A DNA stretch of 64,000 nucleotides from Bacteroidetes bacterium GWF2_41_31 (GTDB lineage: Bacteria; Bacteroidota; Bacteroidia; Bacteroidales; F082). A model generated the notes under the pieces. It was not told where the DNA came from, made no database searches, and saw only the letters and a program-made list of their open reading frames with translations. The stretch is taken from NCBI GenBank assembly GCA_001769215.1, contig MEOL01000032.1, forward strand, positions 124,001 to 188,000. Reading direction: 5' to 3'. Both the position numbers and the translations under genes were made by a program. This document shows, piece after piece, positions 22,948-37,376 of this stretch (within the stretch, counting starts at the first letter, position 1; the number at the start of each line of letters is the position of its first letter).

Positions 22948-24750
22948 CTACTTATAATCTTTAACCGCTTCCTTTAGTTGTTCGGCAGCATTTACAAAAG
23001 CCTTTTTCCCTGCTTTTGTATAGTTGGCGCCTCCTCCTTTTACCTGATCTACGTGGGTTTTAAATACTTCCTTGTTGGTTGATTGATTGATCACCGAAAT
23101 ATTGGCATCCACGAAAGTGAAATAAACGCCCTGATATTGAGTTCCTGTAGTAGATGAGGCTTCTATTTTAATCAAAAAATCGGCTTGTGAAGGATCGTCG
23201 GTAAACTGGTACCCAATATCCACAAGTGCCTTTTTTACAGTGGGTTCGATGGTTTTTATTTCCATGGGCGATCCCAGTAACAACTCACTGCTTTGAATAC
23301 AATACACCTGTTTTTGTACATGTACCAGAAAGTGGGACGGCAGGAGTTTGAACTGTTTCTTAATCAACAGGTAATAAGCGGTATTGGTATCGATTGGAAT
23401 GTAGGTAGCCAGATCGATACCGGCCTCGACTTCTATCAGCGCATCGTTGAACCCCTGGGGAGGAAGAAAACCCGACGCAATCCCGTTATCATCACTCTTT
23501 GCCGTACAAAGTACCGCTCCTGTTTGCTTGTTTATAAATACAACCGGGATGTTGGCGGCTTCATCGTTGTTTGAACCGGAATTATAAGTGACTTTCACCT
23601 GCAATGGTTCTTCAGCCTGCACTCCTGCCTTAACGGTAAAATCAGGATTTACAGCCGTCAGTTTGTACTGAGTTAGTTTTTCAATTCTGGATAGTTCACC
23701 GGGCATGTACACAACCTGTTGGCTTCTCAGCCATTTCAACGGTATCCGGGCAGTAGCCACGGCCACCAGTTCTTCGTTTTTTACCATGCGGTTGTGGATT
23801 AGGAGATCCTCATCCTGAATCCAGTAGTTTCCTGCAATAAGTAAGCTGGCGCCTTGCGCATTTCCCGTGGTTTTGATTTGATAATTTCCGGCTTTTATCA
23901 ACGCATCCTTCAGTGCGATTGCCCACATTTCACTAAAAGGGCTTGAAAAACCTGTATTTAAATAGGTGGTTTCTCCCATGTAAATGGGTGTGGAAATTTC
24001 ACCCAATTGAATGAAGATTCCGTAAGCTACAAAATAAGCTGCTTCATTCATGTTGAGTTCTGTGGCTTTCTGCAGGTTGTTGATTTCCTGATTAAAATCC
24101 AATCGTAGCTGATTGATTTCCTGCAGATTGATTTCAGCCAGCATTTTGCGGTTCAGGGCCAACAGCAGCATGTGGGCCTGGTCTGATTCTGCCAGCATGG
24201 GCATTCCTTCGTAGAAGCTTCTCAGGGCCTCTTCTTTGTTACCCATTTTCAGGAATTCACGGCCTTCATTTAGTTTCTGCTCCAGCTTTTTTTGGTTTGC
24301 AGCCATCAGGTTTTTGTAGTAGAAAGCCAGTTCCTTTTTGTTTACGTAGCTAAATGCATACACCTCATTTTTCTTCTTATCATAATAGTGCTCGGTGCGC
24401 AACCCATTGATTTTGGCATTTGAAAAGGAAACGCTTTTCGAAAGAAAAGCCTCGCCGGACTTGCCATTGATGTTTGAAATGGTCAGGTCGTTTTGTGATT
24501 CTATTTCCACTTCAATGCTTTGCACCACTTTGTCGCGGGCCATGGATTCGTACTTTTCCACCATTGTACCATGATCTTCATTGTTGGTATTTACAGCGGA
24601 AACGAAGCCAGTTATCCATTCCGATTCGGGATACATTTCGGCTCTTTTGTAATAGTCGGTCCAGGCGGGTAACTGTGCATTTGAGTTCTGTGGCCTTCCA
24701 ATAAGCAGGCCAAAAAACATCGCGATAATTGACAGGAGATATTTATTCAT
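22948..24750 (-). CDS. Secreted LPP20-like protein with PEGA/TPR-like middle
   Basis: Exported protein of 600 aa with a signal peptide (about 1-25, ending SNAQ). Residues 30-150 resemble the LPP20 lipoprotein domain (WITGFVSA...YESMARDKVVQSIEVEI), found in outer-membrane-associated proteins that accompany CsgG-like secretins. A short alpha-helical repeat (about 150-215) follows, then beta-rich domains including a variable-adhesin-like Ig segment (about 380-450). The last 100 residues resemble CsgG-partner domains (YQFTDDPSQADFLI). It lies 35 bp downstream of the CsgG-like gene, so the two form an operon. Envelope-assembly or stress-related function is inferred. Confidence 0.65.
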   Translation of the reverse strand: MNKYLLSIIAMFFGLLIGRPQNSNAQLPAWTDYYKRAEMYPESEWITGFVSAVNTNNEDHGTMVEKYESMARDKVVQSIEVEIESQNDLTISNINGKSGEAFLSKSVSFSNAKINGLRTEHYYDKKKNEVYAFSYVNKKELAFYYKNLMAANQKKLEQKLNEGREFLKMGNKEEALRSFYEGMPMLAESDQAHMLLLALNRKMLAEINLQEINQLRLDFNQEINNLQKATELNMNEAAYFVAYGIFIQLGEISTPIYMGETTYLNTGFSSPFSEMWAIALKDALIKAGNYQIKTTGNAQGASLLIAGNYWIQDEDLLIHNRMVKNEELVAVATARIPLKWLRSQQVVYMPGELSRIEKLTQYKLTAVNPDFTVKAGVQAEEPLQVKVTYNSGSNNDEAANIPVVFINKQTGAVLCTAKSDDNGIASGFLPPQGFNDALIEVEAGIDLATYIPIDTNTAYYLLIKKQFKLLPSHFLVHVQKQVYCIQSSELLLGSPMEIKTIEPTVKKALVDIGYQFTDDPSQADFLIKIEASSTTGTQYQGVYFTFVDANISVINQSTNKEVFKTHVDQVKGGGANYTKAGKKAFVNAAEQLKEAVKDYK

Positions 24751-24785
24751 GGTGAAGACCTTGTTAGTGATTAAAAGTATTACCG

Positions 24786-26048
24786 TTATTTAACATCCGA
24801 TTTGTGAATAAATCCGGTTTTGGTGCCACGCAACTGGATTTTGTAAAAATCGCCTTGTTTTTCAATCACTTTAAATTCTAATCCGCCAGGCACTTTGGCT
24901 ACCACTTCACCCGACTTATCGGGCAAATCATACACATTGGTCCGGTCGGCACTCGTACCTTTTACTAAAACCCTGTCGGACAATGCGGTAGAAATATCAC
25001 CACCCGAGAAAGTATATGGTTGCACCGGACGGCCAATTTCTTCCAGAAACGCAGCCAGTTCAAGACCTCTTTTGGCCCGTTCGGCTGCTTTTTGATACTG
25101 TTCGTTTGTGAAATCAATTTCATAGGCAATACCGTAATATTCGGCAGCCTCTTCAAAATCACCCACCATTTCGTATATGATACCTAAATTATAGGCCGCT
25201 TTCGGGTTATACGAATCGGCCTCATACATGGCATAGGCAATGGGGAAAGCGCGGTCGAGGTCGCCGGCTTCGATGTAGTCCATGGTCTCTTTACTCCGGT
25301 CTTTAAATTCTTTGAGTTTGATTTTCTCAAAATCATACTTGATTTCTTCATATCCGGGAGTAAAATAGCCCACAAACTGGTTGGCCAGGTCTTGAAGCGC
25401 CACATCGGCCATCTGGTCGACCGTGGGCATTCCCGAAATGTTATCATCGCAAGCGGATTCTGTCACTTTGGCCTCTGCATTTTTAGTGCCTTCGATTTTT
25501 GCAGTCTCCACCGAAATAATCTTGATGGTTCCTTTAGCGGTTACCGTTCTTTTTACACAACGTGATGTCGAGGTATTCGTCCTCTCTTCATTATCGGTGT
25601 AGCTAACATTGCCCAGAATCATCACATCTAAACCCAACAATTTACCCACTTCAGCTGCCGACGATTCATCAAGAGCCCCCGATAGCGACAGCCGTTGCTC
25701 TTTCATGATTTTTTCCAGTTGTTCGCGTTCAATCACATCATAAAAGTCGGTTTTTACCCCCTTAACAAAGGTTTTCCCCTCCTTGGCCTTCACAAGCCCC
25801 ATCCATTGTCCCTGAGTATTGTATATTCCGCGATGCTGATCGAGTAAGGCTCCCACAATAAAATTGGTGATGACAAGATTTTTTCGCCTGTTGTTAGTAC
25901 AATCAAATTGCAATACCCCGATGCGCTTCATATTGTAAAAAGGTTTTTCGGGGGCTTTCAAAATGAAACAATCTACTTTCTGAGCCGATAACTCGTTCCA
26001 AAATACGATGGATAAAACAATGATAATAAATAGGTTGGCTTTCTTCAT
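24786..26048 (-). CDS. CsgG/HfaB-like secreted protein with TPR and SH3-like C-terminus
   Basis: Exported protein of 420 aa: signal peptide (about 1-22), a CsgG/HfaB-like domain (about 35-235; RIGVLQFDC, then FYDVIEREQLEKIMKEQ and AAEVGKLLGLDVMILGNV), TPR-like helices (about 255-340) and a C-terminal bacterial-SH3-like domain (about 355-420; VPGGLEFKVIEKQGDFYKI). CsgG proteins form outer-membrane pores for curli; the many CsgG-like proteins of Bacteroidota are uncharacterised and lack the curli partners, as here. No lipobox was seen, unlike true CsgG. It heads the two-gene operon with the LPP20-like gene and is divergent from the 26329-34007 cluster. Confidence 0.78.
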   Translation of the reverse strand: MKKANLFIIIVLSIVFWNELSAQKVDCFILKAPEKPFYNMKRIGVLQFDCTNNRRKNLVITNFIVGALLDQHRGIYNTQGQWMGLVKAKEGKTFVKGVKTDFYDVIEREQLEKIMKEQRLSLSGALDESSAAEVGKLLGLDVMILGNVSYTDNEERTNTSTSRCVKRTVTAKGTIKIISVETAKIEGTKNAEAKVTESACDDNISGMPTVDQMADVALQDLANQFVGYFTPGYEEIKYDFEKIKLKEFKDRSKETMDYIEAGDLDRAFPIAYAMYEADSYNPKAAYNLGIIYEMVGDFEEAAEYYGIAYEIDFTNEQYQKAAERAKRGLELAAFLEEIGRPVQPYTFSGGDISTALSDRVLVKGTSADRTNVYDLPDKSGEVVAKVPGGLEFKVIEKQGDFYKIQLRGTKTGFIHKSDVK

Positions 26049-26103
26049 GGTGAATATGATTCAAAAGGTTAGTATGTAGATGACCAGGGATTTAATTAAC
26101 CCA

Positions 26104-26135
26104 TAAAAATAGCGAATAATCAGGTAATGGGCAAA
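26104..26135 (-). promoter_or_regulatory. Promoter of the CsgG-like operon
   Basis: On the minus strand, -7 TATTTTTA (complement of 26104-26111) and -33 TTTG (complement of 26132-26135) are 20 bp apart. The predicted leader is about 50 nt. Confidence 0.55.
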
Positions 26136-26328
26136 AAAGCGTCTAATTTAGAATTACTCTAAACTAATCACAGAATCAACGACTTAACGAAAACGATGCT
26201 TTATCAGTTTATTAGCAAATAATCGTAAATAATTCAGCTTGTATGCTATTTTATTTTTATAAATCAGTATTTTTACGAGTCTAATTTAAATACAACCTGA
26301 AATTAATTAATGATTAAAAGCTCAACCC

Positions 26329-26970
26329 ATGAAAAATTCAATTTTACTGATCAGTTTATGTTTGGTATTTGCGTTCACATCCAACGCGTATGCACAAAGC
26401 ACCAAGCAGATTAAAAAGGAAATTAAAGGTAAAGCGATTAAAGACGCGCGTAAAGAAGCCAAAAAACTTGCAAAAGATGGATTTACGGTTGCTCCCGGAC
26501 AATTGCCTATGGACAAGCAAATAGAAGCTGTTTGGATAAAAAGGTACGAAACTACCAAAGATGGCAAACCTGCTTATTTTTTGGCTGATGCCCGTTCGGT
26601 TGGCGAAACCCATTCTGCGGCTAAATTGCAGGCATATGAAGTAGCCAAAATCAACCTGGCCGGTCAAATTGGAACCGAAGTGGCCGGTTTGGTAGAAACC
26701 ACCCTGGCCAATGCGCAATTGAATGCCGAAGATGCGGCTTCGGTTACCGAAACGGTGGCTACCTTTAAATCGATCGTCGGATCGAAAATGGGAAGATTGC
26801 TTACCCTTTTTGAAGCTTCCAGAACGATTGATAAAAATACCGAAGTAACCGTTACACTGGGTTACGACTATGCCACTGCATTGGAAATGGCCAAAAATGT
26901 CCTGCGTGAAGAGATGAAAGATAAAGCCAAGGTAAACGCGGAACAGTTGAATAAAATTTTGGATTTTTAA
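26329..26970 (+). CDS. Secreted LPP20-like protein
   Basis: Exported protein of 213 aa: signal peptide (about 1-23, ending YAQ), a short lysine-rich helical stretch (IKKEIKGKAIKDARKEAKKLA), then an LPP20-like core in which an Ala-rich helix (AAKLQAYEVAKINLAGQIGTEV) precedes a beta strand. It is the first gene of the plus-strand cluster and is divergent from the CsgG-like gene. A -7-like box TATTTTTA lies at 26268-26275. An LPP20-like protein opposite a CsgG-like protein suggests they work together at the outer membrane. Function unknown. Confidence 0.68.
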   Translation: MKNSILLISLCLVFAFTSNAYAQSTKQIKKEIKGKAIKDARKEAKKLAKDGFTVAPGQLPMDKQIEAVWIKRYETTKDGKPAYFLADARSVGETHSAAKLQAYEVAKINLAGQIGTEVAGLVETTLANAQLNAEDAASVTETVATFKSIVGSKMGRLLTLFEASRTIDKNTEVTVTLGYDYATALEMAKNVLREEMKDKAKVNAEQLNKILDF

Positions 26971-27000
26971 TCTGCCGCAAGGTGATAATCAACCTTTATC

Positions 27001-34640: not shown

Positions 34641-37376
34641 TCAATCCCCATTAAATTTAAACCCAAGCGATGGTTTATTTAAACTTTTCTGTGGTTCGAA
34701 CTCCTTCACATCTGCCAACATTACCGTAATCATGGCTTGTGAGGTACGTTGTGCCTGCGGCAAGTCGGCCATCCGCAATTCCTGGTTTCGGATGGATTTT
34801 TCCACCACCTTCCGCATGGAGCGGGCATTGCCAAAAAAACGGTTGCGGTTTTGGTATAGAAAAGCGATATAGACTTTCAGGTGTTGTTCTGCTTCAGCGT
34901 CGGGAGCCAGGCCCTTAATTTTAAACATGCCCTGAACAATGCTGTAAAGCTGACTTTCGTTGAAATCGTTAAATAAAAAAGTGTTGTCGAAACGTGATTC
35001 CAGTCCGGGGTTCGATTTCAGGAAGTCCTGCATATTTTCAGTGTAACCGGCCACAATCAGGCTAAAGTTGCCCCGTTGGTCTTCCATTTCTTTGATAAAA
35101 GCTGCCACAGCCTGCTTACCAAATTCGTTGTTTCTGCCCTCGGTAAGCGAATAGGCTTCATCGATAAACAGCACACCTCCCATCGCCTGTGCGATGAGTT
35201 CCTTGGTTTTAAGGGCCGTTTGTCCCACGAAACCTGCCACCAGTGAACTACCATCGGCATCCACCAGGTGCCCTCGCTCGAGTAAGCCCAATGCCTTGTA
35301 TATTTTCCCGATGATGCGGGCTACCGTGGTTTTTCCCGTTCCCGGATTACCGGTAAAAATGCTGTGCATCGAGAAGGCCTTCAACACATCGCGGTTCATT
35401 TCCTTGTAATAGCGGGTCAGCTTCACCAGTTCGTTGATTTCCTGTTTGATATTCTCCAGTCCCGTGAGTTTGTTGAGTTCATCAATGGCCAGTTTAAGCT
35501 GATCGTTGTCGATGGGGAGTTCCAATTTCTTTTTGGTGGATGTTTCCTCCATGTCTTCAATGTCTTCGGGCTGGATCACTGACAGGATATTTTTATTGAG
35601 TTTTTCGGGATCGTGTTGTTTAATGACCCGAACACCCATGTTCATTTTGGCCTCATCCACCAAAGCCGTTGCAAAACGGGCGTTTCCAAAGCTTTTATCG
35701 CGTTTGCGGTAGGCCGTTGTAACCAGTTTAAGCAACCGTTTCTGCGCTTCGGGGCTCAGTTTTACATCCTTCTTTTTAGCAGCGTATTGAGCAATCTCCA
35801 CCAGTTCATCCGGGGTATAATCCTCAAAATGGAAATAGTGCTTAAACCTCGATTTTAATCCGGGATTCGATTTTATAAACGTGTCCATTTCCTTTGGATA
35901 ACCGGCCACCATGATGGCCAAATCGCCCGCTCCGTCGCTCATTTCGGTAATGAGTGCTGCGATGGCCTCAGGTCCGAAATCGCTGCTCGCCCCTTCTTTA
36001 AACAGTGAGTAGGCTTCGTCGATGAACAAAATTCCGCCTCTGGCTTTTTCAATGGCCTCTTTGGTGTCTTTTCCCGTTTGACGAACAAAGCCGGAAATCA
36101 AGTTGTTGGCTTCCACTTCATGCACATGGCCTTTGGAAAGCAATCCCATCGAATGGAAAATTTTACCCAGCAACTTGACCACGGTGGTTTTTCCCGTTCC
36201 CGGATTTCCGGTGAAAACACTGTGCAAAATAATTTCATCCTCATCATGAAAACCGTTTTCCTTTCGAAATTGCAAAAAGCTCACATAATCAACATATTCT
36301 CGCACTTTGTTTTTAATGTTCTCCAGACCGATGAGGCCGTTCAAGTCAGCCAGAATTTCTGTCAAAGGACGGTCGTCAATTTCAATTTCAACATCCGATG
36401 GGGTTTCTTCATCCGAATTGTTTTCGGGTTCACCGGAAACTGTTTTTTCGCTGTCATCTGTTTCCTTGTTTTTCAGGTTTTGGGGAGAAACATGAGTGGG
36501 GTTGTACAATCCGGCCACATCTTCATTCAACAGGGCTTCATACTCGCTCATGCGTCTGGCAAAGGCTTCACCAACGGAAAACGGAATCACGGCTACGATG
36601 GTGTCCATAAATACCACTTCAATCCGGTAATTGTCTTCTATCCAGGTACCATTATTTTCAGATCCCCAGCCTGAGGTAATGGTAAAACATTCACCTACTC
36701 CCTCTTTAGGAGTGATGTGCACCATGGTGTCGGAGGTGCCGATAACCTGACCGGTATCGTCGATAAAGTTGAAAAACAATTCGCAAACCCAATCTTCGGT
36801 AATTTTATTCAAAAACCTCAGTTCTCCCATGATATACCGCGTTTCAGCGGACTTGAATGTTTTGAGATATTCACGGGATTTTTCATCTCGGTCGCCAGTC
36901 GGTGCTTCATAGGTTCTAAAGGTAATGGCTTCAAAATAGGGGTTGTTTTTTTCGGTTACCCGGTCGTAATCCTCAATAAAGAAGTCGGTGGTTCCAACTT
37001 CCTCTCCATCGATATCCGCTATCCACCTGTATTTACCAGGTTTCCAGTATTTTCCCCGTTCATCTTCGCCCCAGCCAAAAGAATAGGTAATGATGTTGTC
37101 CTCTTTCGGGATGGTGATTTCATCCTGTTTGATGCAGATTTCGTCGCCAATTGTGCTTCCGTTCATTTTAACTGCACGTAAATGAATACCTGCCTTCCAG
37201 TCATTTTCATCGAAAAGCTTGTTGTAAAAGGCCAGTTCGGTGCTCAGATAGGTGATTTCGTTCTTATCGAACACCTTCCTGAACTTGCGTTTGCTGCCCA
37301 TGGCACGATCCCAGGCATAGGATTGCAGACTTTTAAATTTAAAATTTTTCCCGTCTTTTGATTTCCCGAAAAGCAT
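34641..37376 (-). CDS. Double CbxX/CfxQ-type AAA+ ATPase
   Basis: Protein of 911 aa with two related AAA+ modules of the CbxX/CfxQ (SpoVK, RubisCO activase, EccA) type. Walker A GNPGTGKTT near 386 and 679, Walker B LFIDEAYSL near 450 and 736, and a GNAR-type helix (FGNARFA, FGNARSM) in each. In front are two similar beta-rich repeats (about 45-135 and 150-270) that share a W-G-(E/S) core and a conserved PGKYRW/EDNYRIEVVF strand, then an acidic linker (about 320-345). Such ATPases remodel or thread protein substrates. The N-terminal repeats look like a substrate- or partner-binding part. Cytoplasmic: there is no signal or membrane segment. A possible -7 box TAATTTTA (complement of 37410-37417) lies upstream. 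Confidence 0.82.
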   Translation of the reverse strand: MLFGKSKDGKNFKFKSLQSYAWDRAMGSKRKFRKVFDKNEITYLSTELAFYNKLFDENDWKAGIHLRAVKMNGSTIGDEICIKQDEITIPKEDNIITYSFGWGEDERGKYWKPGKYRWIADIDGEEVGTTDFFIEDYDRVTEKNNPYFEAITFRTYEAPTGDRDEKSREYLKTFKSAETRYIMGELRFLNKITEDWVCELFFNFIDDTGQVIGTSDTMVHITPKEGVGECFTITSGWGSENNGTWIEDNYRIEVVFMDTIVAVIPFSVGEAFARRMSEYEALLNEDVAGLYNPTHVSPQNLKNKETDDSEKTVSGEPENNSDEETPSDVEIEIDDRPLTEILADLNGLIGLENIKNKVREYVDYVSFLQFRKENGFHDEDEIILHSVFTGNPGTGKTTVVKLLGKIFHSMGLLSKGHVHEVEANNLISGFVRQTGKDTKEAIEKARGGILFIDEAYSLFKEGASSDFGPEAIAALITEMSDGAGDLAIMVAGYPKEMDTFIKSNPGLKSRFKHYFHFEDYTPDELVEIAQYAAKKKDVKLSPEAQKRLLKLVTTAYRKRDKSFGNARFATALVDEAKMNMGVRVIKQHDPEKLNKNILSVIQPEDIEDMEETSTKKKLELPIDNDQLKLAIDELNKLTGLENIKQEINELVKLTRYYKEMNRDVLKAFSMHSIFTGNPGTGKTTVARIIGKIYKALGLLERGHLVDADGSSLVAGFVGQTALKTKELIAQAMGGVLFIDEAYSLTEGRNNEFGKQAVAAFIKEMEDQRGNFSLIVAGYTENMQDFLKSNPGLESRFDNTFLFNDFNESQLYSIVQGMFKIKGLAPDAEAEQHLKVYIAFLYQNRNRFFGNARSMRKVVEKSIRNQELRMADLPQAQRTSQAMITVMLADVKEFEPQKSLNKPSLGFKFNGD

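Follow-up and report, generated by a model that had tools for sequence, protein, structure and literature searches.

Do ten adjoining genes that match no described pathway make up a single machine of the cell envelope, or are they merely neighbours? The genes, A to J, lie in the window, by which we mean the whole 64,000-nucleotide stretch of DNA analysed here; it belongs to contig C32, and the genome (G000) measures 4.5 Mb. An earlier note on this DNA had described nine or ten genes sitting together, with an exported pair, A and B, divergent from a six-gene run, C to H, and an ATPase gene, J, closing the region convergently. All ten open reading frames are present with the coordinates, strands and spacing that it gave (Table 1): A and B point away from C-H, the gaps on either side of the divergent region span 8-61 bp (A-B 35, C-D 30, D-E 61, E-F 60, F-G 8 and G-H 8 bp; B-C, 280 bp), and J, on the minus strand, runs against C-I on the plus strand. 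A promoter consensus scan yielded no excess of matches (26 versus 30.5 in shuffled sequence), and a terminator scan barely more than shuffles (24 versus 16.2).

Table 1. Positions of the genes and smaller features of the locus within the window.
Feature	Position	Strand	Remark
A: exported, 600 aa; LPP20-like N-terminus, middle Ig/CNA-like region, DUF4136-like C-terminus	22948..24750	-	
B: exported, 420 aa; CsgG domain, TPR and SH3b; without lipobox	24786..26048	-	
B-C divergent intergenic region; slot of c6 in relatives	26049..26328		
C: exported, 213 aa; LPP20-like A-rich signature, LPP20 not detected by Pfam	26329..26970	+	
D: exported, 870 aa; N-terminal helix, LapG/transglutaminase-fold domain (residues 298-489), SBBP beta-propeller, C-terminal domain	27001..29613	+	
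D catalytic triad region: Cys409 (DCEDR), His436, Asp463 (DPT)	28225..28389	+	32-member alignment
E: signal peptide, periplasmic right-handed beta-helix (pentapeptide-like), TM1, TM-loop-TM C-terminus	29675..31522	+	
E re-entrant-loop-like motif SLNSFVLIGFGVMPEKG	31370..31420	+	
F: integral membrane protein, 166 aa	31583..32083	+	
G: multi-pass membrane protein, 278 aa; conserved cytosolic-looking C-terminal tail	32092..32928	+	
G C-terminal tail DDDIPRLYPD (consensus DDDIPRLHPD)	32896..32925	+	
H: cytoplasmic SMI1/KNR4 (SUKH) and TPR protein	32937..34007	+	
I: accessory protein, 180 aa	34059..34601	+	
J: beta-rich N-terminal region, two intact CbbX/SpoVK-class AAA+ modules	34641..37376	-	convergent

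To ask whether the arrangement is maintained, D was searched in 119 related genomes (MAGs of uncultured bacteria, mostly labelled Bacteroidales or Bacteroidetes) and stretches of at most 20 kb around the loci were examined. In these relatives A and B are divergent from C-D-E(-F-G-H) and J is convergent, and every pair of genes that shares a contig keeps the order and orientation of the window (100%, 20 loci), so that the arrangement exceeds chance. Counting only loci with both genes on the contig, synteny is complete for A-B (16/16), B-C, divergent (18/18), C-D (20/20), D-E (20/20), E-F (13/13), F-G (12/12), G-H (11/11) and H-J, convergent (8/8). The block is found complete in L053, L054, L056, L060-L063 and L067/L100, with F not recognised in L063, and where the full set exists, separate occurrence of the CsgG pair, the six-gene run and the ATPase is not the majority pattern. 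E was found only in Bacteroidales-type MAGs (31 loci; 28 of the 119 relatives). C is found near D in other families too (L035, L051). Gene order persists down to ~40-60% protein identity; the window's flanking genes N1-N6 are common to the genus only and are lost outside it. Trees built from D+C and from RpoB agree (Mantel r = 0.90, p = 0.0005; 13 of 21 splits in common), all genera being monophyletic in both, which argues for mainly vertical inheritance and for a block that descends with the genome rather than travelling as a moving cassette. A literature search on the gene combination found nothing on this locus. The description of an undescribed, conserved envelope locus is borne out by this constancy of order and orientation, and we think it very probable that the locus is conserved as a genuine functional unit. 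One genome of the same genus (G004) carries A-B-c6 beside flanking genes N1-N2 and C-D-E-F-G-H on another contig (L132, L055).

The locus is nonetheless composed of two modules, a core A-B-C-D-E and a set F-G-H-J. Genera g4 and g9 have the core but lack F-G-H-J beside it; conversely, genera g12, g13 and part of g2 (L104-L108) have c6-F-G-H-J, or parts of it, unaccompanied by A-E, so that neither module needs the other. The single-machine reading put forward earlier survives in that the genes are conserved together, but has to give way to two separable modules, each of which is also found alone. At the core loci of g4 and g9 (type II), a MltC-like lytic transglycosylase and a HerA-like ATPase lie between B and c6, core and both proteins being found in L065 and L068-L071; the MltC-like gene, c12, matches SLT and Mltc_N with E-values of 9e-24 and 1.5e-9. 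In a paralogous locus, L033, the neighbours of D are again LPP20-like proteins, together with an A-like and the MltC-like gene. The zinc-ribbon protein c6 (~243 aa) has its usual slot between B and C in relatives, 56-204 bp from C in 15/15 loci having both; it usually accompanies the core A-E, is also usual with F-G-H-J, and turns up in other, unrelated settings (genera g14 and g15). It is missing from the window, and no copy was found elsewhere in genome G000.

Within the second module, G was found in 23 of the 119 relatives and J, at E-values of 1e-60 or below, in 36. The two co-occur in 21 genomes of the same nine genera, with G only in 2 and full-length J without G in 4 genomes of the family (Fisher p = 5e-12, a value not corrected for phylogeny). 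G is limited to the Bacteroidales family studied (0/394 other Bacteroidota sampled). Unrelated, non-conserved insertions occur around H and J, between G/H and J, at L123, L060, L107 and L112; judged by eye, they include a DUF4062/STAND-looking protein, a SAM-domain-looking protein, transposase-like ORFs and large ORFs.

What do the individual proteins look like? A to E all have N-termini resembling signal peptides. The reading of A and B as CsgG/LPP20-type proteins stands for B, whose CsgG domain scores 38 bits against a Pfam cut-off of 20.8 (the match spanning profile positions 49-156 of 210 only), alongside an SH3_3 domain that is also above cut-off and TPR; it is weaker for A, in which LPP20 is seen in 5 of 14 relatives, always below threshold (best 1.9e-4), together with a weak DUF4136 signal. 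Sequence searches of the PDB gave nothing usable for A, and TPR and SH3 matches only for B. C is strongly conserved, with no confident domain, and despite its LPP20-like signature gives no match to PF02169 in Pfam. A simple pattern for a lipobox-like motif was absent from the homologues of A-E (~20 relatives each; 0/20 for B), leaving the outer-membrane component of the earlier model unsupported; nor is there a sign of a CsgG-type pore. A second protein with a CsgG domain is encoded elsewhere in the genome (G000 C26:9279-9755).

D had been described as a transglutaminase with a propeller. The propeller is there, an SBBP beta-propeller with a CylK-type match, but the domain preceding it models as a LapG-like cysteine-protease fold, and Pfam's Transglut_core is reached only below threshold, in 11 of 32 members. 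Proteins with the LapG fold may be proteases, transglutaminases or inactive. The AlphaFold2 model of D has a pLDDT of 85 overall and ~90 in this domain, and residues 298-489 superpose on LapG 4u65_E with Z 10.8 and rmsd 4.1 over 143 aligned residues and on Legionella LapG with Z 9.2-9.4; Foldseek gives LapG a probability of 0.97-0.98, though at an E-value of ~0.1. A profile search of the PDB with the catalytic domain came back empty, without a LapG match, and because a sequence-level family match is absent we call D LapG-like in fold and do not file it as LapG. Cys409, His436 and Asp463 are invariant in 32 sequences from several families. As modelled, D is a periplasmic cysteine protease of LapG-like fold in which the Cys-His-Asp triad is intact. 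LapG itself is described in PMC4359373 as a periplasmic protease recruited by a transmembrane receptor, LapD, and given the fold and triad of D and its position next to the inner-membrane protein E in all loci, the two suggest a pair analogous to LapG-LapD. An isolated full-length paralogue of D (L072:9877-12498, genome G038) has YGKE in place of DCED, its Cys being lost, and is therefore likely a pseudo-enzyme. Other D homologues, shorter or otherwise different, occur in other families (L042, L049, L050, L051), where their neighbours include caspase-domain CARDB proteins (c20) and further exported proteins, hinting at a broader exported-caspase/transglutaminase association.

E is modelled as a signal peptide, a beta-helix and one TM helix, followed by a TM-loop-TM segment with SLNSFVLIGFGVMPE. 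The beta-helix is clear by VIA-align (Z ~15-18 to beta-helix proteins); Foldseek returns weak beta-helix and pentapeptide matches only, and Pfam a pentapeptide-like match below threshold. The membrane part is modelled with a pLDDT of ~50-80. E had been likened to a K+ channel, and a G[FY]G motif (GFG/GYG) and P[ED] are indeed kept in 20/20 relatives. The Thr of the K+ filter and the Asp that follows it are missing from all 20, however, so that the T-x-G-[YF]-G-D filter is not matched; none of 20 members hits Pfam Ion_trans_2, the best signal in any relative being one sub-threshold match (E-value 0.007); and when E was compared profile to profile with 19 Ion_trans_2 domains of related genomes, the probability was 0.2%, no better than controls. 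Since this test against genuine Ion_trans_2 domains failed, we have cut the label back to the motif: homology to K+ channels is not supported beyond a GFG seen in the sequence.

F and G are multi-pass membrane proteins, as had been proposed, and belong to no known family. For H, the SMI1/KNR4-TPR assignment is upheld, SMI1_KNR4 scoring 45.4 bits against a cut-off of 25.4 in addition to TPR; its family has many roles, which counts against the envelope-remodelling reading given below. I is accessory: it is not at the same place in relatives, and its remote homologues (~30%) reside on Nostoc, Rhodococcus and Phocaeicola plasmids. J proves to be the double CbxX-type AAA+ protein that had been described, with two AAA + AAA_lid_6 modules, both of which carry intact motor motifs: GNPGTGKTT and FIDEA (Walker A and B), AGY, NPGxxSR and, at what is presumably the pore loop, an aromatic residue. 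Its best model is SpoVK/CbbX/EccA, to which both modules score (E-values of 4e-59 for CbbX and 2e-51 for EccA1). An assignment to the FtsH/Cdc48 type was set aside, the SpoVK/CbbX/EccA score being far better. CbbX acts on the C-terminal tail of its target, and the conserved tail of G, encoded beside J, makes G a candidate target of J by analogy. The characterised members of this clade (CbbX, EccA, SpoVK) are dedicated chaperones without protease partners, several of which act on envelope synthesis, SpoVK activating the peptidoglycan enzyme MurG (PMC10659427).

How might these parts fit together? Nine to eleven undescribed genes in a fixed order suggest a cell-envelope machine of two separable modules. 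We tentatively propose, on the strength of the roles known from J's clade, the analogy of D-E to LapG-LapD and the indications of a peptidoglycan link, that the locus encodes an inner-membrane and periplasmic envelope-remodelling complex made up of the core and an exchangeable control module. A, B and C would be soluble periplasmic proteins of LPP20/CsgG type, the SH3b domain of B being expected to contact peptidoglycan; such a link is indicated by this domain and, at type II loci, by the MltC-like enzyme. D would act as a LapG-like cysteine protease on a beta-propeller, processing a periplasmic or outer-envelope substrate. The periplasmic beta-helix of E may sense or dock the core assembly, and its membrane part may relay the state of that assembly to the cytoplasm. 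The control module, putatively made up of F, G, H and J and usually joined by c6, would place F and G in the inner membrane and use H as a SUKH/TPR adaptor; J probably threads a peptide, most plausibly the tail of G, and thereby resets or activates the membrane complex. Two genera have the MltC-like lytic transglycosylase and the HerA-like ATPase in place of this module.

Several other readings draw on the same observations. One, which we regard as unlikely, is an inside-out control resembling the Lap system: cytosolic state (J/H/c6) would gate D via the inner-membrane proteins, and D would release a surface protein, with D as the effector and A-C as its inhibitors or docking partners instead of a peptidoglycan scaffold. 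D does model closest to LapG, its best LapG row, 4u65_E, is LapG in complex with the periplasmic part of a LapD-type receptor, its DCED and H motifs are invariant, and E, whose gene follows that of D in 20/20 loci, lies in the inner membrane and has a large periplasmic domain; yet the locus has no GGDEF/EAL or HAMP domain, no large adhesin and no type I secretion gene, D lacks a sequence-level match to LapG in the PDB, and E is not LapD-like. Were E instead a cation channel gated by its beta-helix, the other genes would maintain or regulate it, as part of an ion or osmotic-stress complex. The modelled TM-loop-TM, the universally kept G[FY]G and P[ED] and the one relative that approaches Ion_trans_2 speak for this, but in view of the missing filter residues, a profile comparison no better than controls, the lack of an Ion_trans_2 hit in 20 members against Pfam and the pLDDT of ~50-80 in the membrane part of the model, we consider it distinctly unlikely. 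That the locus is a secretion apparatus of curli or amyloid type, B being its pore, is barely credible: the CsgG domain of B clears the Pfam cut-off, but the match is partial, TPR and SH3b follow it, a lipobox-like motif is lacking in 20 homologues, and no curli partner genes are recognised in the locus, in keeping with the absence of curli genes noted earlier.

Might the locus serve in conflict, or not be a system at all? The SUKH domain of H, an AAA+ protein and insertions around G/H/J in relatives that look by eye like DUF4062/STAND-type and SAM-domain families and transposases could suggest phage defence or immunity to contact toxins. We hold this to be highly improbable, as PADLOC finds only generic AAA matches in J and no known system model fits, inheritance is mainly vertical and congruent with RpoB rather than a matter of horizontal spread, five of the proteins are exported to the periplasm, and the insertions are not conserved. 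That the neighbours are kept together by common descent, with no functional system behind them, is very unlikely: although mainly vertical inheritance, the separation of the modules in some genera and the split of A-B-c6 and C-H between contigs in G004 are compatible with it, order is kept at ~40-60% identity while N1-N6 are lost outside the genus, the intergenic gaps are very short, C stays near D in other families (L035, L051), and D, A and MltC recur together in the paralogous locus.

Returning to the envelope-remodelling complex, a bolder version, possible but doubtful, is that the locus represents a new class of trans-envelope machine in Bacteroidales, in which a periplasmic LapG-fold protease/propeller and an LPP20/CsgG scaffold are linked, by way of a beta-helix receptor in the membrane, to interchangeable cytoplasmic motors, ATP hydrolysis in the cytoplasm driving or resetting the remodelling of peptidoglycan or an outer layer. 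The motors would be the double CbbX-class AAA+ protein in most genera and a HerA-class ATPase with a lytic transglycosylase elsewhere. Most of the soluble parts fall into recognised superfamilies; F, G, c6 and the combination as such are undescribed in the sources searched. If the genes do form one machine, it would constitute a new Gram-negative link between a cytoplasmic AAA+ motor and periplasmic proteolysis and wall remodelling, would give functions to the orphan families E, F, G and c6, and would suggest that a LapG-type protease fold can occur in a setting unlike the c-di-GMP/adhesin systems of Proteobacteria. The swap of ATPase modules between genera is a ready-made test of the motor's role.

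How does the locus compare with known systems? D resembles LapG in its modelled fold, in its Cys-His-Asp triad with a DCED motif, in its export to the periplasm and in being encoded beside an inner-membrane protein, and differs from it in being fused to a beta-propeller and in having no sequence-level match; the locus, unlike the Lap adhesin system, has neither a LapD-type c-di-GMP receptor nor a LapA-type adhesin. E shares with the two-TM K+ channels of Ion_trans_2 a G[FY]G loop between two TM helices, but not the filter Thr and Asp or any profile-level homology. Like CsgG of curli, B has a CsgG domain, though one without a lipobox and accompanied by SH3b and TPR, and the locus, unlike the curli system, encodes no curli substrates; A recalls LPP20-type envelope proteins through its weak signal in 5/14 members. 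The Mltc_N and SLT domains of MltC are found in c12 of type II loci, a gene absent from this window, and profile comparison detects an N-terminal FxxF helical segment common to MltC and D, a likeness that is weak because the segment is repetitive and includes the signal peptide. J, finally, shares with the SpoVK/CbbX/EccA clade the GY sensor-1 and the Asn before the Arg-finger stretch that characterise it (PMC10659427), and departs from it in joining two AAA modules in one chain behind a beta-rich N-terminus.
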